The translations under genes and the position numbers were made by a program. This document shows positions 1-32,072 of a DNA stretch of 32,072 nucleotides, in pieces. The notes below the pieces were generated by a model. That model was not told the DNA's origin, made no database searches, and worked only from the letters and a program-made list of their open reading frames with translations. The stretch lies in the NCBI GenBank assembly GCA_021848965.1, contig JAJZTL010000013.1:1-32072 (forward strand), given 5' to 3'. The DNA is from Pseudomonadota bacterium (GTDB taxonomy: Bacteria; Pseudomonadota; Gammaproteobacteria; Legionellales; Legionellaceae). Position 1 is the first letter of the stretch, and each line of letters starts with the position of its first letter.

Positions 1-209
1 GGTTTGAGACCTACCCCTGAAGGTCGATCTCGGTGGGCCTACCACCATCTTTCCTATAGCTTTACACAATCCATGTCCTTTCCTTAGAACATTTCTCTGC
101 GTGCCTGCGGCACACTATCCCCAAGATCTGTGGAAAACTTTATAATACCGTCTAATGAGTTTTTGTTACAAAAATGTAAATATTACCTTTTGAACCGTGA
201 ATGTAAAAT
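1..209. other. Gene-free left edge of the window
   Basis: I see no coding gene here. The first 120 bases are less AT-rich than what follows and hold two short GC-rich hairpins: GGTGG/CCACC (32-36 with 42-46) and GTGCC-TGC-GGCAC (101-113). Neither is followed by a T run, so I do not call a terminator. A TGTGGAAAA at 129-137 fits a relaxed DnaA box on the minus strand. TTTGTTAC at 162-169 is a copy of a motif also found at the repressor promoter near 4190. The stretch could be the tail of an unseen upstream module or part of the origin. Confidence 0.4.
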
Positions 210-546
210 ATTTACCACACACCTTATTGACTACCAAATAGACCGCTAATTGACCGCTATTACAATATATTCTTGATGTTACTTTTTAGCAAGACAATAC
301 AAGATATCTCATAAATTTGACTGCTAATTGATGTCTAATTAATGGATAACAAGAAATCAAATAAGCCATTTATAATAATGGCGATATAAGAAATTTTATT
401 AAATTGCTGAATTTTAATATTTGTATTTCAGACTGCCAATAGACTGCCAAATAGACTACCAAATAGACTGCTAATTTATTTTAAATAATAGCTGATAAAG
501 TTATCAAAGGCTTATATCGCTTGACTGCTAATTTGACCGCTAATAG
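210..546 (+). repeat. Left arm of a large iteron-bearing inverted repeat
   Basis: This arm is the reverse complement of 903-1216. By hand alignment the arms differ at about five single bases and by two insertions in this arm, one of 11 bp near 236-257 and one of 12 bp near 442-465. It carries about ten copies of the iteron in reverse orientation (GACTGCY, GACCGCT, GACTACC), starting at 229, 241, 252, 319, 431, 442, 454, 466, 523 and 535. Spacings inside clusters are 11 or 12 bp, one helical turn, as expected for an initiator or partition-protein binding array. The outer end is at ATTTACC (210) and the inner end at CTAATAG (546). Confidence 0.85.
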
Positions 547-902
547 CATCTAACTATAACACGCCATTGGCAAGTAAATAATATAATCGTTCATACGCCT
601 TTTGAAAGTGTGATTATCTTTTCATTAATCGAGTTATTTTGAATATCAGCGCATAACTAAAAAAGTTTTTATTTATTGGGCGGTACTATTTTGCCACCTG
701 TGCAAATACATTGATACTGAAAATTATTTTTGGCGCCATATTTCAAACTGCTCATATGTTTTTTGAATTATCTTTGCAGACGGTCGAGTTAATTGTCGCA
801 CAATATAGTTCGTACTATCTTAACGCTAATCACGAACAATGCGGACATAACGCAGCTCGCCCAGTAAAGAACCGTGTTCCGCGCGCAGACTTTTCGCTTA
901 AT
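547..902. other. Spacer between the inverted-repeat arms
   Basis: This is about 356 bp without a convincing gene. An 85-codon open frame (711-968) runs from here into the right arm, but it has no recognisable domain and its end lies inside the repeat, so I do not call it. The spacer contains one copy (766-799) of a roughly 34-bp element that recurs at 1358-1392, and a small hairpin, ATAGT-TCGT-ACTAT, at 805-818. A spacer flanked by inverted iteron arrays fits a replication origin or a cruciform-forming locus. Confidence 0.5.
766..799 (+). repeat. Direct repeat copy A (AATTATCTTTGC ... TTAATTGTCGC)
   Basis: Both ends match the element at 1358-1392: AATTATCTTTGC on the left and GAGTTAATTGTCGC on the right, with a diverged, one-base-shorter middle. 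Unlike copy B, this copy is not palindromic at its left end. Its role is unknown; a recombination/resolution site or a protein-binding site would both fit. Confidence 0.55.
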
Positions 903-1216
903 CTATTAGCGGTCAAATTAGCAGTCAAGCGATATAAGCCTTTGATAACTTTATCAGCTATTATTTAAAATAAATTAGCAGTCTATTTGGTAGTCTATTG
1001 GCAGTCTGAAATACAAATATTAAAATTCAGCAATTTAATAAAATTTCTTATATCACTATTATTATAAATGGCTTCTTTGGTTTCTTGTTATCCATTAATT
1101 AGACGTCAATTAGCAGTCAAATTTATGAGATATCTTGTATTGTCTTGCTAAAAAGTAACATCAAGAATATATTGTAATAGCGGTCAATTTGGTAGTCAAT
1201 AAGGTGTGTGGTAAAT
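903..1216 (-). repeat. Right arm of the large iteron-bearing inverted repeat
   Basis: Reverse complement of 210-546, shorter by two whole iteron units (11 and 12 bp). It carries about eight iterons in forward orientation (AGCGGTC, AGCAGTC, GGTAGTC, GGCAGTC). The near identity of the arms means either a recent inverted duplication or continuing gene conversion between them. Length change by single iteron units points to slippage or unequal recombination within the arrays. Confidence 0.85.
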
Positions 1217-1352
1217 TATCAACATCACAAGAACAACACCAACAAACCAAAATAATTTATGTATACCAAACCCATATAACACATTTAATTTTTTTCATAT
1301 GTAAGACCACTTAGCAAAGTAATTACCGCAAGATACGTGAAATCGATGTCCT

Positions 1353-1392
1353 GCGACAATTATCTTTGCCGGCCCGTAGAGTTAATTGTCGC
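1353..1392 (+). repeat. Palindromic repeat copy B with GCGACAATTA / TAATTGTCGC arms
   Basis: The arms GCGACAATTA (1353-1362) and TAATTGTCGC (1383-1392) are perfect inverted repeats around a 20-bp centre. The part from 1358 onward repeats 766-799. The size (10-bp arms, about 20-bp core) is larger than a Xer/dif-type site, whose central region is usually 6-8 bp, so I do not assign it to that class. Confidence 0.55.
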
Positions 1393-1556
1393 GGAATAAA
1401 TTGACAAAAAAATCACAAGATTTTATAAAAAAGATCCTCTCATTTTTTACTTCAGTCAAAATTTCAATAAAAGAGTTTTTCTATTTATTATCAGATTTAA
1501 ATCATTAAAAACAAGAAACCGTAAACGATTTTTTTATTTAACAATAAAAGGCGTTT

Positions 1557-1574
1557 TTTCTTGTTTACAAGAAA
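1557..1574. promoter_or_regulatory. Palindrome TTTCTTGT-TT-ACAAGAAA, candidate operator
   Basis: Perfect 8-bp arms separated by TT. The half-site ACAAGAAA also occurs at 1511-1518, at 349-356 in the left repeat arm, and as TTTCTTGT at 1081-1088 in the right arm. Five copies within 1.3 kb of the origin-like region suggest a binding site, for example for the HTH of ParA or the winged-helix protein encoded downstream. The binding partner is inferred. Confidence 0.4.
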
Positions 1575-1596
1575 CATAAATTATTTCATAACAAAA

Positions 1597-1785
1597 AGCA
1601 GTCGGTAAAGCAGTCTAAATAGTAGTCAATTCAGCAGTCAGATTAATTAAATTAACCGTCAACTAGCAGTCACTTTAGTAGTCAATATTAAATACAATGC
1701 AATAAGGGTAATTGCTAAAATTATATTGAAGATAAAGGCTTGATTGATAAAAATATTACTCAAAATTAGCGGTCAATTAGCAGTC
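1597..1785 (+). repeat. Third iteron array, direct orientation
   Basis: Cores at 1597, 1609, 1621, 1633, 1665, 1677, 1768 and 1779 read AGCAGTC, AGTAGTC or AGCGGTC, with a degenerate AACCGTC at 1654. Neighbouring copies are 11-12 bp apart, so they lie on one face of the helix. The array sits just upstream of the parA promoter. It is a candidate initiator-binding array or a centromere for the partition complex, and could also mediate autoregulation. Confidence 0.75.
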
Positions 1786-1914
1786 TAATTGGCTATTAGT
1801 AGTAGTAGAGAATTTATTAACAATAACTACTACATCTTATATTGAACTTCAAATGCATTTTTTTAATTTAAAACATCGTTGCTTTTCTGTAAATTAAAAT
1901 TTAGTAAAAAACTA

Positions 1915-1943
1915 TTGACTTCATGTTTTTTGTATTTTAAAGT
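1915..1943 (+). promoter_or_regulatory. Candidate sigma-70 promoter for parA
   Basis: TTGACT (1915-1920) and TAAAGT (1938-1943) are separated by 17 bp. The -35 matches the consensus at five of six positions and the -10 at four. Transcription would start near 1950, which favours an internal ATG (1992 or 1995) over the TTG at 1950 as the ParA start. In such AT-rich DNA chance matches are common. Confidence 0.35.
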
Positions 1944-1991
1944 TAATGCTTGAAAATGACGTTTAACTTGAAAATGGTGAAAATGATTTTT

Positions 1992-2969
1992 ATGATGAAT
2001 CCAAAAGTACTTATATCTGAAGCCGCTGAAATACTTGGGGTTACACCCAATGCTGTTCAGTACCAACTGAAAACTAAAAAACTTCAACATTCGAAATTAA
2101 AAAATAGAGTTTATTTTGAACACGAAGCTGCTTTACATGTATTTGAAAAATTCAAAACAAAATGTAAGGTTTTTGTTTTTGTTCTTGTAAAAGGTGGAGT
2201 AGGGAAATCAACGCTATGTAGGGAGGTTGCCATTAGATCAACTTTAATGGGGAAAAAGACATTAATTATAGAGCTGGATCACCAAGGTAACTTAACTAAG
2301 TCATTTGATATTGATGCTAATCAAACACCTGTATTAATTGATCTGTTAGAAGATAGTTCATTACCTGTAGAAGATGCTATTGTGAACGTTATGCCAGGGT
2401 TAGATATTATTCCAAGTAGATATGATAATTCTGTTTTAGATAATTTTATTATGTTAAAAGCTATTCCGCTTCAAAAAGTCTTAAAAAGCAAGATAGATTC
2501 GCTAAGAAGCAAGTATGATTTAATACTGATCGATTGCCCGCCTTCTCTAGGGCAGGGCGTTGCTTCTGCGGTTCTGTGTGCTGATGAGATTTTGCTTCCA
2601 ACTACTCCATGCGATTTTAGCGATTCTGGTATAGAAACTACAGTAAAAGAAGTAAACAGAATGATGTCTGACCATGATGCTGGTAAAATCCCTATGAAGA
2701 TTGTACTTAATCAATATGATCATAGAGAAAAAGACTCCCGTGATACACACACAGATCTCTCTAAACACGAAGAATATAGCAAAATGTATGTTAATTTTTA
2801 TATAAGGACATGTAAGGATATTGAAAAATACAGAAGAAGAAAGTCTTCTGTTTTTGAAAGTACAGCAAGTTGTTATGGAAGAGAAGATATTGATATTTTA
2901 ACAAGAGAGCTATTGCAAATGAATTCCAAGCCAGAATTTGATTCTATTAATAGCGATAATAAAGAATGA
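1992..2969 (+). CDS. parA: ParA-family partition ATPase with N-terminal HTH
   Basis: A deviant Walker A ATPase of the ParA/Soj family, which drives plasmid segregation on the nucleoid. The reading frame is open from a TTG at 1950; residue numbers here count from that TTG. A MerR-like helix-turn-helix covers about residues 20-65 (ISEAAEILGVTPNAV). The Walker A motif KGGVGKST starts at residue 81, the A' motif IELDHQGN near 108, and Walker B LILIDCPPS near 191. I chose the ATG at 1992 because it lies after the candidate promoter and about 11 bases behind a GGTGA; 1995 and 1956 are alternatives. An HTH on ParA is typical of type Ia systems, where ParA also represses its own operon. The next gene, 28 bp downstream, would be its partner. 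Confidence 0.9.
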   Translation: MMNPKVLISEAAEILGVTPNAVQYQLKTKKLQHSKLKNRVYFEHEAALHVFEKFKTKCKVFVFVLVKGGVGKSTLCREVAIRSTLMGKKTLIIELDHQGNLTKSFDIDANQTPVLIDLLEDSSLPVEDAIVNVMPGLDIIPSRYDNSVLDNFIMLKAIPLQKVLKSKIDSLRSKYDLILIDCPPSLGQGVASAVLCADEILLPTTPCDFSDSGIETTVKEVNRMMSDHDAGKIPMKIVLNQYDHREKDSRDTHTDLSKHEEYSKMYVNFYIRTCKDIEKYRRRKSSVFESTASCYGREDIDILTRELLQMNSKPEFDSINSDNKE

Positions 2970-2997
2970 TTTACTTATATAACTAGGGCTATATTTT

Positions 2998-4152
2998 ATG
3001 AGTCAAGATGCTGTAGTTAAAAAATTTGTCCCAAAAAGAAGAACGCCGTATCTAATGCAAGAAGAAGTTATTAGAGAAAGAGAACGTTCTGATGCTCAAT
3101 TAGATAATAAAACTGCTTTAATTTCTCTTGACACTGAAATTAGCAGTCAATTAGTAGTCAAAAAGGAGTCAATTAGTAGTCACGCTAATTTTGATACTTC
3201 ATTAACGAAAGTTAATTTTCATGACGAAGTTTTATTGTTATCTGGGTTGCAAAAAAAAATAGCTCAATTTCTTGTTAAAAAATGTATCGAGCGTAATAAA
3301 AATGATACAGGGATCGTTACATCTGAAATGTTAAGTTTTGCTGGAGGCACAACACAAAAAACTATTAAAAAAATTCTAGAAAGGATGCTAGAAAAAAAAC
3401 TATTCAGCAGACTTAAAGGAAAGCCTGGGAAAGGCGGCTTTTCCATATTTTTATTGGAAGAAGAATTTATTAAAATTGTAAGGTTACAGTTGGAGATGGA
3501 AGCAGGCTTTTCTGCAATAAATACACCAATTAGTAAAAGAAACCTTCAGCAACGCACTAATACTAATTCATTGCCAGCGGATTGGAATAATATTGATTTA
3601 AAAGCTATTACCGATGCTTTTAGAAATTGTATAAACGAAAATACGCAATTTTTCGGAAAAAATCAATTAAGGCTAATATATAATTCAGCTGGTGATGCTT
3701 TAACCTGTGAGGACGTTCAAAATTCTATTAATGCCTTTGCATTTGGATTAAGAAAATTTGAAGATCAGGAGCCTTATTCAAAAATGAATAATCCGGCGGC
3801 TGTATTATTTGAAACTTTAAAAAATGGTGAGAAATGGGAAGAAAAGAGGTATTTATCTCAAGAAGAGGAAGGTTTGCTTGAAGAGTACATATATTTATCA
3901 GAAGCTCTGCAAAAGAATATGAAGAAACACTACGAAGAATGGAAAAATATCGATAGAGACCAAAAATATAAAGCGTATCAGAAGAACATACGTTCCAATG
4001 AATATTATGGAGAAAGAACCTTCGAAGAAAAGGCTTGGGAAGACTATAGTAAAAATATATGGAAAAATGAAAAAAATAGAATATTAATGGAAAATATGGG
4101 GATTGATCAAAATCTCCTCAAAAAATTTGAAGCCATTTCTAAAAGACAATAA
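2998..4152 (+). CDS. Winged-helix plasmid replication or partition protein
   Basis: 384 residues. Residues 78-165 look like a winged helix: a helical LSGLQKKIAQFLVKKC segment, a recognition-helix region around TTQKTIKKILERMLEKKL, and a basic glycine-rich wing (KGKPGKGGFSIF). This layout is familiar from plasmid-encoded DNA-binding and Rep proteins. The C-terminal part (about 195-345) has an NPAAVLFETLKNGEKW segment reminiscent of Rep/DnaD-like helper domains and ends in a charged, Lys/Glu-rich tail. Residues 49-62 are encoded by four iteron copies. Its place after parA fits a ParB-type partner, while the winged helix and nearby iterons fit a replication initiator; I lean to initiator without being able to decide. 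Confidence 0.6.
   Translation: MSQDAVVKKFVPKRRTPYLMQEEVIRERERSDAQLDNKTALISLDTEISSQLVVKKESISSHANFDTSLTKVNFHDEVLLLSGLQKKIAQFLVKKCIERNKNDTGIVTSEMLSFAGGTTQKTIKKILERMLEKKLFSRLKGKPGKGGFSIFLLEEEFIKIVRLQLEMEAGFSAINTPISKRNLQQRTNTNSLPADWNNIDLKAITDAFRNCINENTQFFGKNQLRLIYNSAGDALTCEDVQNSINAFAFGLRKFEDQEPYSKMNNPAAVLFETLKNGEKWEEKRYLSQEEEGLLEEYIYLSEALQKNMKKHYEEWKNIDRDQKYKAYQKNIRSNEYYGERTFEEKAWEDYSKNIWKNEKNRILMENMGIDQNLLKKFEAISKRQ
3142..3181 (+). repeat. Four iterons with exact 11-bp period inside a coding sequence
   Basis: Cores start at 3142 (AGCAGTC), 3153 (AGTAGTC), 3164 (AGGAGTC) and 3175 (AGTAGTC). The spacing is exactly 11 bp, which is out of phase with codons, so this is not a protein repeat. The motif is the same as in the upstream arrays. 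The likely function is binding by the element's own iteron protein, for autoregulation or handcuffing with the origin. Confidence 0.75.
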
Positions 4153-4211: not shown

Positions 4212-4898
4212 TTGAAACAATATCAATATTTCTTGGGACGTACATTGGCTAAACACTATTTTAATCTCAGTAAAGTGCTTAAAAATTTATTAAGTAAAAA
4301 AAATATGCGTCCGGCTGACTTGGCAAATGCTGTTAACTTGCCAAGACCAACAATTCATAGATTATTAACTGGAAAATCAACTAGACCTCATAGTTCATCA
4401 TTGCAACCTATTGCTGATTATTTTTCTGTTAATATTGATCAATTACTTGGGGAAACACCCTTAACGGGTGCCGAATCTTCTACATCTGTTGATAAAGCTA
4501 ATGTGGATGTTAAATATGTTCCATTAATTCGGTGGGAATCTATAATTCAGACAATCTCATTAGACACAAAAGATAACAATAACTACATCCCTTTTATTGG
4601 AAATATTAGTGAACATGGTTTTGCGACAGTCATGCCTGATACGTCTATGGAGCCATTTGTACGAAAAAATTCAATTTTGATATTTGATCCGAAAAAACAG
4701 TTCAAAGATAGGAGTTATGTATTAGTAAAAATAAAAGGAGTTCAGTTACTGTTTAGGCAAATACTTTTTGATTTAGAAGATAAATATTTAAAAGCATTAA
4801 ATGGTGATTTTAAAGAGTTAGGTATGAGATTACTAAGTGATGAAGACTCTATTATTGGAACTCTTCTGGAGTCAAGAATAAATTTTGAGGCAGAGTAA
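4212..4898 (+). CDS. XRE-family repressor with S24 (LexA/CI-like) domain
   Basis: An N-terminal HTH (about residues 20-60, with LANAVNLPRPTIHRLLTGKS as the recognition region) is joined to a C-terminal S24-type domain. MPDTSMEP (residues 141-148) holds the expected nucleophile Ser145. The strand that normally carries the catalytic lysine reads VQLLFRQI, so the Lys seems replaced by Phe or Arg, and I see no Ala-Gly cleavage site in the linker. It may therefore be a dimerising repressor that does not self-cleave in the SOS response. There is no early ATG: the frame starts at a TTG (4212), and a TTG at 4245 behind GGGACG is an equally good start because the mRNA would begin near 4206. First gene of the cassette operon; comparable phage-type repressors are found upstream of Legionella transfer regions. 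Confidence 0.8.
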   Translation: MKQYQYFLGRTLAKHYFNLSKVLKNLLSKKNMRPADLANAVNLPRPTIHRLLTGKSTRPHSSSLQPIADYFSVNIDQLLGETPLTGAESSTSVDKANVDVKYVPLIRWESIIQTISLDTKDNNNYIPFIGNISEHGFATVMPDTSMEPFVRKNSILIFDPKKQFKDRSYVLVKIKGVQLLFRQILFDLEDKYLKALNGDFKELGMRLLSDEDSIIGTLLESRINFEAE

Positions 4899-5648
4899 AT
4901 GATTAATTTAAAAAAATTACTTGGTAAAATTTTAGGTTATCCAGCCTATAAGGTAGCAGCTATAGATCAAGATGAAAACTCTAATTATGTAATTACTGTG
5001 CAAATTACAAGAAACGGGTTGTGTTTTCCCTCTACACCAGAAAAAATTTTATCAAGCGATCGATTAACAGATAAATTTTCACAAAGAGATATAAGAACAC
5101 TTACTTATTTGGGATACTTAGAAATAAATAGTCCAAAATACAAAATAATGGCAAAAAAGCTTGCTGAAAATGACAAGCTTCTCTTAGTTCTACATGAAAA
5201 GAAAAAAAATAAATTGGAGACTAGATCAGCGTCAGATATAGCAAAAGACGAAGATGCTATTAAGCAATTTGACTCATCAGATGCCCATTTCATAGGGTAT
5301 ATGCAAGCCATGGAAGATTTAGAAAATGAAAAACTTAAATTAAAAGAAAAAAAATTAATTAATACTCAAAATTACCAAATGAGACTTCTTATCGAAATTA
5401 GTGAAAATTCTAAAGAATTACTAATGCTGGATTTTATTATAGATAACGAAATTATTAAATACAAAATAGCCAATATGCAAGATGCTGAGTTTTCGGTTCT
5501 CGAAGGGGATATGTCAGTAAAAAATGGTGAATTATATAGGGCTATTGTAAATAATAGCGCAACGGATATAAGTATATCCAATAAGAAAAATATATTAGAT
5601 CAGGTATCAAAAAAACATTTAATAAAACTAATGAATAAGGGTGCATAA
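4899..5648 (+). CDS. Unknown protein in the repressor/AfsA operon
   Basis: 249 residues; I do not recognise a family. The N-terminal half is mixed alpha/beta, with RNGLCFPSTPEKILSSDRLT near residue 38. A lysine/glutamate-rich helical stretch covers about 145-160, and a C-terminal part (about 165-240) looks like beta strands. There is no signal peptide or membrane segment, so it is probably cytosolic. It starts directly after the repressor stop codon, with GAGG about nine bases upstream, and its own stop overlaps the next start by one base, so it is translationally tied to both. Such tight coupling to the repressor suggests a role with it (co-regulator or sensor), but that is only context. Confidence 0.7.
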   Translation: MINLKKLLGKILGYPAYKVAAIDQDENSNYVITVQITRNGLCFPSTPEKILSSDRLTDKFSQRDIRTLTYLGYLEINSPKYKIMAKKLAENDKLLLVLHEKKKNKLETRSASDIAKDEDAIKQFDSSDAHFIGYMQAMEDLENEKLKLKEKKLINTQNYQMRLLIEISENSKELLMLDFIIDNEIIKYKIANMQDAEFSVLEGDMSVKNGELYRAIVNNSATDISISNKKNILDQVSKKHLIKLMNKGA

Positions 5649-6604
5649 TGATAATAGTAAAAGTAAAACATTATCTTAATTCAGAAGGAATTAAATATTT
5701 CCCTGTTTGGTTTGAATACTTAAAAAATTATCTTACCAAAAGAAAAGGTTTTATGGATATCGGATACTCTATTGAACAAGAAGAAAGCTTTTGCAAAATA
5801 GTTTTACTTTTTGATTGCAATGAAAATTTAAATGTTTGGGCAAAAAGCGATGAGCATATGAGAATCATTGGCAAATTAGATGAATACAGAACTCAACCGT
5901 GGACAGCAAAAAGACACCATGCGTCGAGTTATCACGAGTTAAATTTACCCGAGAAAGAAATTGAATTAATAGGGTATGAGCTCTGCCCATTTACTCAGAG
6001 AATTCATATCATATTGACCGAAAAAAATGTTCCACATAAAACAACCTATATTGATATATTTAATAAGCCAGAGTGGTTTAATACTGTTTCACCATTAAAA
6101 GAAATACCCATATTAAAATTTAATAATAAGGTGATTTTTAAATCTAATGCTATTTGTGAGTTTATAAACGATATATTAGCTTTAGAACTTTATCCACAAG
6201 ATATTTTTGAACTTGCAAATAGTCGAGCTTGGATTGAATTTGGACATTCTTTAATAATGGACATTTATAATATGTCGATTTCTCAAAATAAAAAAGAATA
6301 TTCTGATAAATATGATGAAGTTTATAAGAAATTAGAAAGAATAAACAATGAGAAAACAAAACAACCATATTTTTATGGGAATTTTTTTTCGATGATCGAT
6401 GCTTGCTATGCAACAATATTCATTAGGCTTAATTCATTAGATGAAGCTTATAAAACAAATCTTCTGAATAATTTTGAAGACTTACAAATATGGGATAAAG
6501 AATTATCAAAGAAAACCAGTGTATCTTCTTCAATTATTGATGGTTATTCAGAAAAATTACATGATCTCTTAATGAAGAAAAATGCATATATTGTTAACAA
6601 ATAA
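5648..6604 (+). CDS. ABM-like domain fused to a glutathione S-transferase
   Basis: 318 residues in two parts. Residues 1-85 resemble a dimeric alpha/beta-barrel (ABM-type) domain and match the separate 105-residue protein at 8678-8995 (shared HYLN..GI.YF..WF, YSI, W..S.EH, L.EY). Residues about 104-310 are a GST: the thioredoxin-fold half has CPFTQR at 113-118, as in glutaredoxin-like (omega/DHAR/CLIC-type) GSTs, a cis-Pro region KEIPIL near 151-156, and SNAICEFI for glutathione gamma-glutamyl contacts. The rest is the helical C-domain. An N-terminal Cys suggests thiol transfer or reduction rather than classic conjugation. Inferred role: tailoring of the small molecule made by this operon, or protection from it. 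Confidence 0.75.
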   Translation: MIIVKVKHYLNSEGIKYFPVWFEYLKNYLTKRKGFMDIGYSIEQEESFCKIVLLFDCNENLNVWAKSDEHMRIIGKLDEYRTQPWTAKRHHASSYHELNLPEKEIELIGYELCPFTQRIHIILTEKNVPHKTTYIDIFNKPEWFNTVSPLKEIPILKFNNKVIFKSNAICEFINDILALELYPQDIFELANSRAWIEFGHSLIMDIYNMSISQNKKEYSDKYDEVYKKLERINNEKTKQPYFYGNFFSMIDACYATIFIRLNSLDEAYKTNLLNNFEDLQIWDKELSKKTSVSSSIIDGYSEKLHDLLMKKNAYIVNK

Positions 6605-6615
6605 CTGAGAAATCT

Positions 6616-7299
6616 ATGAATAAAATTGAGCACAAAGGTTATAAGTTTTTCCCTACACTGGTGGCTATTTACGTTACGTTAGGCGTAACTTCTGTTGCGT
6701 TAGGATATAAAATTATACCGATTGCTCATACTATTATTTCAGGAGCTGCTTTAATTTTGCCACTTAGGTATCTAGTTGGTGGGCTTATGGCTGATATTTA
6801 TCCATTGCATCTTGCAAAAAGACAAATGTGGAACCTATTACTTTCATGTTTTATTTTTTCAATTATATCAAGAATAATTATTGATTTGCCTTCACCTAAT
6901 GATTGGAATAACCAAGAAGCATACGAATTTGTGTTGGGAAATAGTTTGCGTATAACCATGGTGGCTGCATTGGGGATGGTGATGGGGATATCAATAAATA
7001 TTTTTATAGTAAAGAAACTCGGGTTGTTTTTTAACCAAAAAATGTTTGGAATGAGAGTTTTTATTGCAACAGCTTGTGGAGAGTTAGTTCAATATGCAAT
7101 TGCTTTGCCAATGATATTTTGGAATACCCTTTCTATTTACAAAATTCTTATGCTAATTATGTCTGATTTTTTAATGCAACTTTGTTTGGTTGCAATTTTT
7201 ATACCATTTTTTTCTGTTGCAAGATATTTTATCAAAGAATTAGAGAAGAATGTTATTCAAGATACAAAGATCACTTTTAATCCTTTTAAGATCAATTAA
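6616..7299 (+). CDS. VUT/YhhQ-family (queuosine-precursor-transporter-like) membrane protein
   Basis: 227 residues with about six hydrophobic segments. Family-like signatures are GAALILPLRYLVGGLMADIY (about 39-61), a basic loop HLAKRQMWN, and the late RVFIATACGELVQYAIALP segment (about 149-167), which matches the conserved R..(S/T)..GE..Q region. Known members import queuine-type deazapurines. Here no queuosine genes are nearby and it sits between a GST fusion and an MFS exporter, so it may carry a different small molecule. The stop codon overlaps the MFS start (TAATG). Transporter class is fairly secure; the substrate is not. Confidence 0.75.
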   Translation: MNKIEHKGYKFFPTLVAIYVTLGVTSVALGYKIIPIAHTIISGAALILPLRYLVGGLMADIYPLHLAKRQMWNLLLSCFIFSIISRIIIDLPSPNDWNNQEAYEFVLGNSLRITMVAALGMVMGISINIFIVKKLGLFFNQKMFGMRVFIATACGELVQYAIALPMIFWNTLSIYKILMLIMSDFLMQLCLVAIFIPFFSVARYFIKELEKNVIQDTKITFNPFKIN

Positions 7300-8672
7300 T
7301 GATGAAATCATTTGATATTGCCATTATAAAAAAGTACGGATTTAATCCGATGAGCTTGCCTTATATATTAGGAAGTATAATGTTCATGGAGTACTTTGAT
7401 GGGGCTGCACTTAACTTAATTTTTCCAGAATTAGCATCATCATTCAATGTTTCTCCAATATTTATGAAAATAAGTTTAACTGTTTATTTAATAACAGAGG
7501 CTATTTTTATTCCTGTTTGTGGATATTTATCACATAAAATAAATTTAAAAACGTTACTACAGGTAGGTATCATATTATTATTTATTGGGTCAATTGGATG
7601 TGTTTTTAGCAACAATATCATATCGTTTATAATTTTTAGAAGTTTTCAAGGAATATCAGCCGCCTTTATTACTCCGATATGCAGATTATTTGTACTTAAA
7701 AAATTTAATAAAGACAATAGATTAGAAGCCATAAATAAAATTATGGGAATAGCTTTGATTGGATTAGTGATGGGGCCATTTTTGAGTGCTTTTTTAGTAA
7801 TATACTATAGCTGGAAACTGATATTTGTTATGTTTGCAATCTTTTCAGGAATATCCTTATTTATTACATGGTTAGTGATTCCAAGCTATAAAGATGAAGT
7901 TAATGAAAGGTTCGATATTATAGGGTACTTGGTTTTATCTTTGGCTTTAGTGTCATTTTTTGCATTTTTCAGCATGACAATAAATGATAATCAAAATTAT
8001 ATTCATGTTGTTTTTTTAATTGCTTCAATTTTATTATTAAAAATATATTTTGTGTTTTCAAGAAAGAATAATACTGCAATTATTTCAAGAGAGCTTATTG
8101 AAGACAAACAATTTTTAATGGGGCTTTTGAGTAATTTTATTTTTCGAGTGTTGTTTGGTGGTGTGATTTTTGCCTGTTCTTATATGTTGCAGATATATTT
8201 AAAATACCCATTAATAAAATCAGCGATATGTTTGTCCTTATACGGTATGGGAATGATCCTTGGAAAAATACTTGTCAAACCTATCACATTGAATTATGGG
8301 TATAAAAAATTACTTGTATATAATAGTCTTTGTTTGGCTTTATTGACCTTATTAATATCAATCGAAATGATATTTAATTCTTTTTATATTCTTTATCTAA
8401 CTTTATTTATTTATGGATTATCGGCGACTGTACAGTATTCAGGGATGAACATAGTCAGTTTGAATGAAATTAAAAACTCGCTACATGCAAAGGCAAATGT
8501 AACTCTAAATATTGTACGATTACTTGGCACAAATTTTGGTATTTCCTTGTCAGCTTTGTTCCTCGGAATGCAAAATGTTAAATTTCAGTATATATTTTTG
8601 CTGATCTTTTCTGTGTATGGCGGCATTGGGTTGGTAGGTTCTGGATTATTTAAAAAAATGAATATAGGGTAA
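7299..8672 (+). CDS. MFS transporter, DHA2 (EmrB/QacA)-like drug or metabolite exporter
   Basis: 457 residues, almost wholly hydrophobic, with 12-14 predicted membrane helices. The first helix region reads MEYFDGAALNLIFPELASSF, as in EmrB-type drug:proton antiporters. A motif-A-like GYLSHKINLKTLL follows helix 2, and a motif-C-like GLVMGPFLSAFLV lies in helix 5, a signature of export. In an operon with biosynthetic-type enzymes and an AfsA-like protein it most likely exports the product. Simple antibiotic or toxin resistance is the alternative. It is one base into the preceding gene and five bases ahead of the next. Confidence 0.85.
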   Translation: MMKSFDIAIIKKYGFNPMSLPYILGSIMFMEYFDGAALNLIFPELASSFNVSPIFMKISLTVYLITEAIFIPVCGYLSHKINLKTLLQVGIILLFIGSIGCVFSNNIISFIIFRSFQGISAAFITPICRLFVLKKFNKDNRLEAINKIMGIALIGLVMGPFLSAFLVIYYSWKLIFVMFAIFSGISLFITWLVIPSYKDEVNERFDIIGYLVLSLALVSFFAFFSMTINDNQNYIHVVFLIASILLLKIYFVFSRKNNTAIISRELIEDKQFLMGLLSNFIFRVLFGGVIFACSYMLQIYLKYPLIKSAICLSLYGMGMILGKILVKPITLNYGYKKLLVYNSLCLALLTLLISIEMIFNSFYILYLTLFIYGLSATVQYSGMNIVSLNEIKNSLHAKANVTLNIVRLLGTNFGISLSALFLGMQNVKFQYIFLLIFSVYGGIGLVGSGLFKKMNIG

Positions 8673-8677
8673 ATATT

Positions 8678-8995
8678 GTGGTTATTTTTCATGTAAGACA
8701 TTATTTGAATAAGAGTGGAATTAATTATTTTGATAAATGGTTTAACAACCTAGTTATGGCATTAAATAATTATGCTGAATTTATTTCAGCCAAATATTCG
8801 ATTGATAATGAAAATAAAATTATTAATCTGTTTTTAGAATTCGAAACACTAGAATCCCTTCAATGCTGGAGAGAATCGACGGAGCATAAAAAAATTAAGT
8901 TACTTCTGAGTGAATATCAAGTAAGTAATTATTGTTCAGATGTATATCAAATAAATAATTTTTCATATGCATCAAAGTTGGAAAAAATATTATAA
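8678..8995 (+). CDS. Stand-alone ABM-like (dimeric alpha/beta-barrel) protein
   Basis: 105 residues, GTG start, with AGGG about nine bases upstream (8665-8668). The whole protein aligns with the first 80 residues of the GST fusion at 5648: HYLN.(S/K).GI.YF..WF, then YSI..E, a hydrophobic strand, E.L..W..S.EH and L.EY. ABM-type proteins are small cofactor-free oxygenases, cyclases or haem-oxygenase-like enzymes acting as dimers. I cannot identify catalytic residues. Two such modules in one operon suggest successive steps on one substrate, or a heterodimer. Confidence 0.65.
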   Translation: MVIFHVRHYLNKSGINYFDKWFNNLVMALNNYAEFISAKYSIDNENKIINLFLEFETLESLQCWRESTEHKKIKLLLSEYQVSNYCSDVYQINNFSYASKLEKIL

Positions 8996-9011
8996 TGTGG
9001 AGAATGGCTTT

Positions 9012-9737
9012 ATGAATTTTATTATTGTTGGCGATAAATTTAATAAAATTGCTGATGATGAAAATATAATAATTGCCAAAAATTTTATTAAAAACATCAA
9101 TGAAGGGGCTTACTCTTTTCAAAATGATATAGTATTTCTTGGGCAGGGGATTAAAAAATCTGATTTAAATACTATGGTTGAATTTTTTGTAGCCAATAAT
9201 ATTGGTTACTCGACCTGTATGGGTGCAAATAAGAAAGAAAACAAAAGATTTGTCCATAAATTAAAAGCTAAAAATGTTGTAATAACAAAACCTAATGCAA
9301 TAAATGCTGTTAATTTCTCAAGTATGCTATGTTTTTCTGATAATTGTGAAATACTGAATGACCATGTAACTGGATTGCATTTACAAGGCGTGCTGATCGT
9401 TGAGGCAGCAAGACAAATGATGCTTTCAGTGGTTGAAAATTTTTTTCTAAAAGACAAAGAGAGATTTAATAAAAGGTTTACAATTCTCAATATTAGCTCT
9501 AATTTTAATCAATTTTTGTTTCCTTTTTCTGTTGAAATTGTAGCCAATATAAAAATCTTATCAAGCAATAAGAATAAATCAATTGCCGAGATTTATTGTG
9601 ATTTTATACAAAATGAATGTGTTTGTGCTACGGTGATTATTAAATTTTATACTCATAATGAAGAATTTATTATGGAAAGGGAAGATATGTTAGCTAAAAA
9701 AGTTATTAGTCAGATAGCAAAAATTGAAAATATGTAG
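9012..9737 (+). CDS. AfsA-like hotdog protein (A-factor biosynthesis family)
   Basis: 241 residues from the ATG at 9012, which has GGAG nine bases upstream; the frame is open back to 8967, but that start would overlap the previous gene by 29 bases. Residues 117-135 read DHVTG..L.GVLIVEAARQM, the hallmark of the AfsA/ScbA hotdog family (DH...G..L.EAARQ). In Streptomyces AfsA couples a beta-ketoacyl chain to dihydroxyacetone phosphate, the first step to gamma-butyrolactone signals. That enzyme has two hotdog repeats; here only the C-terminal one (about 85-225) is clear and the N-terminal 80 residues are not recognised. Last gene of the operon. A related hotdog condensation or thioesterase-like reaction is the alternative. 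Confidence 0.75.
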   Translation: MNFIIVGDKFNKIADDENIIIAKNFIKNINEGAYSFQNDIVFLGQGIKKSDLNTMVEFFVANNIGYSTCMGANKKENKRFVHKLKAKNVVITKPNAINAVNFSSMLCFSDNCEILNDHVTGLHLQGVLIVEAARQMMLSVVENFFLKDKERFNKRFTILNISSNFNQFLFPFSVEIVANIKILSSNKNKSIAEIYCDFIQNECVCATVIIKFYTHNEEFIMEREDMLAKKVISQIAKIENM

Positions 9738-31121: not shown

Positions 31122-32072
31122 ATGATGATGAATACAAGTTATTTTTAACAGAAATCAAACATCAATATCGTTCGTCACAATTAAAAGCAGCGTTATCAGT
31201 CAATACTGAAATGATTCAATTTTATTGGTATTTGGGTAAGCGCGTGGTAGAAAAACAGCAAGAAGTCACGTGGGGATCAAAGTTTATCTCTCAATTGTCT
31301 GATGATCTTCGGCGAGAGTTTCCAGGAACACAAGGATTTTCCACAAGAAACTTGAACTATATGCGACTGTTTTTTAACACTTATCCTAATTTATATCCTG
31401 CACAAACGACGCAAGCATCCTTAATTGTGCAACAGCCTGTTGCACAATTACCGTGGGGTCATATTGTGTTGTTGATGGAAAAAGTCAAAGATCCTGATGC
31501 GCGCGCATGGTATGCGCAAAATATTCTAAAAAATGGCACGGCACGTGGTGTTCTGATGATGCAAATTGAGCAGAATCTATATGAGCGACAAGGAAAAGAT
31601 ACACATAAAATTACCAATTTTGCTCATACGTTACCTCAACCTCAATCAGATTTAGCCAGACAATTATTTAAAGATCCTTACGATTTTCGTTTTCTTCCTG
31701 TGACGGACGAGGCGAATGAATTAAAAATTGAACACGCACTGGTAAAAGATATTCAGAAGCTCTTTTTGGAGCTTGGCAAAGGGTTTGCCTTCATGGGCAA
31801 TCAATATCCCATCACCGTAGGGGAGTCTGATTTTTTCTTTGATATGCTCTTTTATAACGTCCATCTTCATTGCTATTTCATCATTGAAATAAAGGCTACT
31901 GAGTTCAAACCTGAGCATGCCGGTAAGCTAAATTTTTATTTAGCTGCTGCCGATCGCTATCTCAAATCGGAGAAAGATAATGCCAGCATTGGGCTTTTGC
32001 TGTGCAAGAAAAAAGATAGAACCGTGGCTGAGCTTGCATTGAATCATTTGGATGGTGCTATGGGTATAGATC
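31106..32072 (+). CDS. DUF1016 (YhcG-type) PD-(D/E)XK nuclease, cut by the window end
   Basis: The ATG at 31106 follows AGGAG and overlaps the previous gene by 16 bases. At least 322 residues are present with no stop before the window end. The N-terminal domain has QFYWYLGKRVVEKQQEVTWGSKFISQLSDDLRREFPGTQGFSTRNLNYMRLF, typical of DUF1016_N. The C-terminal domain has DFFFDMLFYN...YFIIEIKA, the PD-(D/E)XK core with D, E and K in place. Known relatives occur on mobile elements and in defence-related loci; exact role is unknown. Confidence 0.88.
   Translation, partial: MFQLINDDEYKLFLTEIKHQYRSSQLKAALSVNTEMIQFYWYLGKRVVEKQQEVTWGSKFISQLSDDLRREFPGTQGFSTRNLNYMRLFFNTYPNLYPAQTTQASLIVQQPVAQLPWGHIVLLMEKVKDPDARAWYAQNILKNGTARGVLMMQIEQNLYERQGKDTHKITNFAHTLPQPQSDLARQLFKDPYDFRFLPVTDEANELKIEHALVKDIQKLFLELGKGFAFMGNQYPITVGESDFFFDMLFYNVHLHCYFIIEIKATEFKPEHAGKLNFYLAAADRYLKSEKDNASIGLLLCKKKDRTVAELALNHLDGAMGID

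Follow-up and report, generated by a model that had tools for sequence, protein, structure and literature searches.

The iteron plasmids F, P1, RK2 and R6K and the origin ori2 of Vibrio cholerae are characterized by short direct repeats that serve as initiator sites, by DnaA boxes and an AT-rich stretch, and by a further array next to the origin; when an iteron origin gains initiator sites, this is rarely inconsequential. Repeat arrays upstream of parA are also typical of type Ib partition sites. For V. cholerae ori2, extra iteron arrays have been described that regulate via titration and handcuffing (PMC6090056). In phage lambda, the coding sequence of the initiator O itself contains the iterons (PMC7466680), and in repABC plasmids, which are confined to Alphaproteobacteria and whose origins have neither iterons nor DnaA boxes, the initiator sites are located within the initiator gene (PMC6090056).

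The locus described here is part of a 32,072-nt contig of a Legionellaceae bacterium that was analyzed over its whole length (the window), and it resembles each of these systems in part. With the iteron plasmids and ori2 it shares short direct repeats that are putative initiator sites, DnaA boxes, an AT-rich stretch and an additional array beside the probable origin. However, no significant match of the Rep_3 type was obtained for its candidate initiator, ORF2, an inverted, near-identical copy of 0.3 kb forms the extra array, and iterons are also present inside the candidate initiator gene. As in the lambdoid phages (O and ori-lambda), a winged-helix candidate has iterons within its own gene, and several relatives of ORF2 have a weak similarity to Phage_rep_O, below the Pfam cut-offs; in contrast to lambda O, most of the in-gene iterons are in the linker that precedes the winged helix, further arrays precede parA, and the C-terminal domain of ORF2 has no clear relative of solved structure. 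As in repABC (RepC), a parA-type gene precedes a candidate initiator whose DNA-binding domain is MarR-like and whose gene contains sites, whereas the absence of a ParB-type gene between parA and ORF2 and of a RepC match sets the locus apart from repABC. It also differs from a type Ib partition locus, in that ParA has a weak N-terminal HTH_17 match and ORF2 comprises 384 aa. The closest relative, plasmid p_A of Candidatus Cardinium (CP101109.1), shares ParA (69.8% identical), ORF2 (33–37% identical) and the same iteron sequence upstream of parA, but its iterons are arranged one-way and without an inverted duplication.

The inverted repeat and its iterons

The features of the locus are compiled in Table 1. 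The sequence-only reading, made without any comparison to other genomes, had described two arms that are reverse complements with about five substitutions, separated by a spacer of 356 bp, and had proposed that the arms be aligned. The alignment of the left arm with the reverse complement of the right arm reproduced the repeat at these coordinates and with this spacer length: it has 314 columns with five substitutions (window positions 332, 357, 362, 380 and 382), equivalent to a substitution divergence of 1.6%. In addition, it revealed two gaps in the right arm that had not been listed before, one of 11 bp near 238–248 and one of 12 bp near 433–445 (23 bp in total), each of about the size of one iteron unit. 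The E-value of the inverted blastn match (3.7e-149) shows that the similarity of the arms is not due to chance. All five substitutions are located inside a single iteron-free stretch of 50 bp (P = 0.002 for random placement), and this clustering outside of the iterons suggests that the iteron parts of both arms are held alike by selection or conversion.

Table 1. Coordinates of the features at the parA-ORF2 locus (window positions)
Feature	Position	Strand	Properties
Group II intron, 5' end	1–115	−	GTGTG start at 115; runs off the contig end
Paired inverted DnaA-box-like element	116–137		TATCCCCA..TGTGGAAAA; intact on contig C150 as TTATCCCCAAGATCTGTGGAAAA
Left arm of the inverted repeat	210–546	+	10 iterons; alignment, pattern scan
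Spacer between the arms	547–902		356 bp, 36% GC; no convincing gene
Right arm of the inverted repeat	903–1216	−	8 iterons; alignment, pattern scan
AT-rich stretch	1400–1600		21% GC; between the right arm and the third iteron cluster
Third iteron cluster	1605–1785	−	7 units, several degenerate
parA	1995–2969	+	ParA-family ATPase with N-terminal helix-turn-helix; listed ORF start TTG 1950
ORF2	2998–4152	+	384 aa, candidate replication initiator; family alignment, weak matches of relatives, models, fold searches
In-gene iterons	3138–3181	−	4 units (3 exact) in the ORF2 coding sequence, 11-bp period, TRF score 62

The iteron unit is about 12 bp long, with the sequence GACTGCTAA and the consensus TTGACTGCTAATT. 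Altogether, 29 units were listed, in which GAC is invariant, as is the C three bases further on. They are distributed over four clusters, i.e., the left arm (10 units), the right arm (8), the third cluster (7) and ORF2 (4). The units of the left arm, all on the plus strand, are at 229–262 (three), 319 (one), 431–476 (four) and 523–545 (two); four groups were counted in each arm, in line with the three or four that had been proposed. The window was scanned with the pattern GACYRCYAAWT, allowing at most one mismatch, and compared with 100 shuffles. It contains 28 matches, 25 of them between 229 and 3181, compared with 8.1 ± 2.9 in the shuffles, none of which reached 28. Exact matches number 17 in the region from 229 to 3181, and the rest of the 2.26-Mb genome has scattered matches only, showing that the iterons are concentrated at one genome locus. 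Such a direct-repeat array, with DnaA boxes and an AT-rich region nearby, is among the features of iteron-type theta origins.

A genome-wide search with the arms and the spacer yielded no other copy, except for an overlap with a contig end and a partial repeat of about 40 bp at 1358–1398. Therefore, the repeat is not a dispersed transposable element, a possibility that had been raised together with the first description. A search of plasmid nucleotide sequences with positions 1–2000 of the window retrieved as its sole match the 65-bp intron end, in Sinorhizobium. An open reading frame called mechanically in the spacer region (711–968) found no support, and a two-micron-like flip amplification appears unlikely, as the spacer lacks a convincing gene. 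A palindromic element of 40 bp is present at 1353–1392 (GCGACAATTATCTTTGCCGG / CCCGTAGAGTTAATTGTCGC), and the spacer contains another, degenerate copy of it (761–800); exact matches to its core GAGTTAATTGTCGC are confined to these two places in the whole genome, and the element is possibly a recombination site. Another near-perfect palindrome, of 29 bp, is located near the contig end at 31422–31450.

The contig starts at base 1 of the window. Two other contigs of the same genome overlap the window by exactly 126 bp, i.e., C150 (13350–13475) at 116–241 and C135 at 31942–32067, which suggests that the assembly word was about 127. Exact matches between the two arms extend over at most 97 bp, less than this overlap, so the arms should be resolved by the assembly graph, and an assembly error is unlikely to be the source of the second arm. 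A linear-plasmid telomere at the contig start was ruled out because C150 continues beyond window position 116. C150 also encodes a serine resolvase.

DnaA boxes, intron and gene order

The layout of the locus resembles that of a plasmid replicon: the paired DnaA boxes are followed by iterons, the AT-rich DNA, a further set of iterons, parA and the unannotated ORF2. The AT-rich stretch is a candidate unwinding element. Paired elements similar to the DnaA-box pair of the window are found 650–1020 bp upstream of parA in L. israelensis and in the genomes G040, G153, G149 and G151; in 240 shuffles, no element with three or fewer mismatches arose. In the window, the element is at about −1860 relative to parA, roughly 0.9 kb further out than in the relatives, and the left arm and the spacer (together 693 bp) explain most of this extra distance. 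The boxes of the window are imperfect and split by the group II intron (Rfam RF01999 match at 1–46, minus strand), which sits in the first DnaA-like box of the pair. C150 ends with an intron-free junction of the flank that is identical to positions 116–241, and hence the intron-bearing and the intron-free state are both represented in the assembly.

Further downstream of ORF2, genes for F-type conjugation proteins follow (TraK, TraC, TraH and TraG). The region in between (4212–9737) carries cargo genes, i.e., for an S24-type repressor, a GST-like protein, a Vut_1 transporter, an MFS transporter and an AfsA-type hotdog protein.

The parA-ORF2 module in other plasmids

ParA has a match to PF13614 (E 1.8e-31) and a weak match, just below the cut-off, to HTH_17 (E 5.9e-5) in its N-terminal extension. 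Apart from the Cardinium protein, relatives with 33–43% identity were detected within the same order, where 15 of the 142 other genomes have one, and further relatives in Piscirickettsia, Caedibacter, Megaera, Bandiella and a PVC symbiont of Bugula; a search of viral contigs yielded one match (32%). For 24 loci, including the window, the gene following parA was analyzed as ORF2. The parA-ORF2 module is found in Legionella (family members include L. israelensis and L. septentrionalis), Piscirickettsia, Cardinium, Bandiella, Caedibacter and the PVC symbiont. In the window, the two genes are 28 bp apart, with no repB between them.

The motif repeated inside ORF2 is the same as that upstream of parA in the window and at two loci of P. 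salmonis (NVI 5692 and p2PS6). In Caedibacter, Bandiella, the PVC symbiont and a locus from the viral collection (L130), the gene contains repeats without a clear match upstream, and in several Legionella relatives the sharing of upstream and in-gene repeats was weak or absent in a shared-8-mer test. The number of iterons differs widely among the family members. In Caedibacter taeniospiralis pKAP298, the beginning of the gene after parA consists of in-frame repeats, about 18 in number and most of them 33 bp long. Upstream of parA, 38 copies of a unit with 12-bp spacing are present in one orientation in genome G132 (locus L050), and an iteron array of more than 30 copies in G169 (L052). Contig C8 of G153 (75.4 kb) carries two parA copies (2045–2968 and 63805–64728, 61.76 kb apart) of equal score and with identical downstream ORF2 DNA, and could be a replicon that was duplicated or a circular plasmid that was over-read.

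ORF2 as a candidate initiator

ORF2 of the window consists of an N-terminus of the KKFVPKRR type, a disordered linker, a winged helix (aa 74–152) and a helical C-terminal domain. An alignment of 18 ORF2 proteins revealed the short conserved N-terminus, a linker of variable sequence, the winged helix and, in most of them, the C-terminal helical domain; the in-gene repeats are located in the linker DNA. The window protein has no match in Pfam, NCBIfam or PHROG, including the RepC family and Rep_3, for which one relative only has a sub-threshold Rep3_N match (E 0.007). In contrast to the window protein, 7 of 18 relatives have weak matches to Phage_rep_O (best E 0.0011, below the Pfam gathering score), and the PHROG matches of the relatives include several replication-initiation families. 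A search with the ORF2 alignment A3 retrieved one relative.

The structural model of the window ORF2 has a pLDDT of 60, with values of about 80 for the winged helix and the middle helices. For the winged helix, the fold matches are to regulators, among them MarR and ArsR, and to a plasmid centromere-binding protein, that of pNOB8 (4rs8; Z 8.8, 2.6 Å over 81 residues). The matches to viral folds, all with low TM-scores, include the N-terminal part of lambda gpO, a replisome organizer and replication initiator proteins. The C-terminal domain (3568–4149 in the window), which was modelled alone from a relative (L057:6697–7197), is predicted to be helical with a pLDDT of 89.6, and a search of solved structures yielded no significant match for it (best Foldseek E 2.7, best Z 4.2). 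This domain is common to the Legionella, Piscirickettsia and PVC plasmids, and the p2PS6 plasmid of P. salmonis encodes it in ORF2. It is lacking from the short ORF2 of some relatives, in one case beside a gene for a DnaA-N-domain protein; the domain is absent both from the gene after the short ORF2 of P. salmonis and from the DnaA-like protein of Megaera.

In a study of P. salmonis plasmids, no Rep was found for three of four plasmids (PMC6963756). We found no other annotated replication initiator in the P. salmonis plasmids of 31,951 and 50,681 bp or in the plasmids of L. israelensis and Bandiella. ORF2 is probably the initiator that the work on the Piscirickettsia plasmids could not find.

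Position of the probable origin and emergence of the inverted layout

The distributions of GC skew were analyzed for ten complete or near-complete plasmids of the family, including the G153 contig with its two parA copies. In five of them, the skew minimum is at most 0.41 kb from the start of parA, corresponding to 0.0038–0.0107 of the half-length. With uniform positions, the chance that at least five of ten are at or below 0.0107 is about 4e-8, a value that has to be read with the influence of gene orientation on skew and the incomplete independence of the plasmids in mind. The minima of four plasmids disagree with parA, and one is intermediate. When C150 was joined to the window from position 242 onward, the minimum was at −319 bp from parA, i.e., at about window position 1673, close to the third iteron cluster and the AT-rich stretch, and outside of the arms rather than between them. 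Taken together, the proposal of a putative origin is supported by the iterons beside parA, the DnaA boxes and the skew minima of half of the plasmids, but not by those of the four that disagree; the region is a probable plasmid replication origin with iterons. However, bidirectional initiation from the two arms, as suggested by the sequence-only reading, is not supported, because the minimum is located outside of the inverted repeat.

It had further been proposed to search for the same structure beside parA in other Legionellales plasmids. The DNA preceding parA was scanned for inverted matches at 22 other loci where it comprises 200 bp or more, and no inverted repeat of 0.3 kb was detected; some of these stretches are short, two of the loci are from one contig, and the closest relative (ParA 70% identical) was among them. 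As none of these related loci has it, the inverted layout is not a property of this replicon type and cannot be needed for initiation in the parA-ORF2 family. In Cardinium p_A, all iterons point the same way as those of the right arm and opposite to those of the left arm. Because the same iterons are one-way there and none of the 22 loci has the inverted repeat, the left arm appears to be the derived inverted copy. Most simply, it is a recent, lineage-specific inverted duplicate of the right arm, which probably has the ancestral orientation.

Discussion

With moderate confidence, we favor the explanation that the inverted repeat represents two mirror copies of a block of iterons to which the initiator would bind, located at the origin of a conjugative plasmid from a member of the Legionellaceae, with ORF2 as the initiator and a regulatory role of the left arm. 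ORF2, the winged-helix protein encoded right after parA, is most likely the initiator and would bind the iterons of about 12 bp, both upstream of parA and within its own gene. DnaA would probably join at the paired DnaA boxes, and the AT-rich DNA would be opened near 1400–1700. The left arm, which would have emerged when the right arm was duplicated in inverted orientation, would now most likely be an extra, non-essential iteron array that titrates the initiator or pairs with other arrays (handcuffing). The result would be copy-number regulation by the extra array, i.e., a lower copy number or added incompatibility, as in other iteron replicons. Intramolecular handcuffing between the two arrays, as suggested from the sequence, is possible; in the literature on inverted iteron arrays, we found no paper directly on point.

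The main rival to a regulatory role is that the left arm is a neutral scar, i.e., that a template switch or a fold-back inverted a piece of the origin without consequence, because the arrays are redundant. The absence of the inverted repeat from all related loci examined, the substitution divergence of only 1.6% and the wide variation in iteron number across the family all fit such an event. However, the confinement of the five substitutions to one iteron-free 50-bp stretch (P = 0.002) suggests selection or conversion, and extra initiator sites at an iteron origin seldom remain without effect, which makes this reading doubtful. Somewhat less probable still is that the iterons are a centromere, with ORF2 as the ParB-like partner, the arms as two partition sites and another gene as the initiator. 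ORF2 indeed directly follows parA, at the usual place of parB, its winged-helix fold matches 4rs8, and type Ib sites typically have such arrays in front of parA. Nevertheless, the relatives of ORF2 match phage replication-initiation families and not ParB families, ParA carries an N-terminal HTH, unlike in type Ib, paired DnaA boxes adjoin the arrays, the skew minimum is at the locus, and for several of the related plasmids no initiator other than ORF2 is a candidate from the annotation.

Two further readings concern the repeat as such, and both are highly improbable. The arms might be active structurally, as a cruciform, as a single-strand fold-back that loads the replisome, or in recombination that flips the spacer, and a single strand is predicted to fold over the whole arm length (−367 kcal/mol with DNA parameters). 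However, cruciforms nucleate from short centres, and the much longer spacer of 356 bp makes extrusion from duplex DNA, as envisaged by the sequence-only reading, unlikely; moreover, the structure is absent from the relatives, the skew minimum is outside of the arms, and the spacer has no convincing gene. Slightly less probable again would be an assembly artefact with a single real arm. The contig start falls inside a group II intron and overlaps C150 by 126 bp, which marks a branch point, but five substitutions and 23 bp of indels separate the arms, and no exact match between them exceeds 97 bp, which is shorter than the overlap of 126 bp.

The inverted duplication of the iteron block is a variant within the known kind of iteron origin. 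More interesting is that the candidate initiator gene of the parA-ORF2 module contains iterons; in this, ORF2 recalls lambda O as well as RepC, but it falls into neither family in the searches. It is conceivable, though rather less than probable, that parA-ORF2 plasmids form an undescribed replicon class of intracellular bacteria from several phyla, with a winged-helix initiator that has a new C-terminal domain and binding repeats both in its own gene and upstream of parA, and that in the present plasmid the arms have become an intramolecular handcuffing device.

From the comparisons across genomes, the parA-ORF2 system seems to be widespread but unannotated, with an initiator gene that carries the same repeats in its coding sequence, and the inverted copy looks like a private, recent duplication in that system. 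For the Piscirickettsia plasmids, which were reported without a recognizable replication gene (PMC6963756), the parA-ORF2-iteron module offers a candidate initiator and a candidate origin, and the same holds for related plasmids from Legionella and from further bacteria with an intracellular lifestyle. Nature has set up an experiment with the inverted copy, in which two near-identical arrays are present in opposite orientation, in contrast to the one-way arrangement of the Cardinium relative. The effect of array orientation on handcuffing would thus be directly testable with this plasmid and its Cardinium relative.
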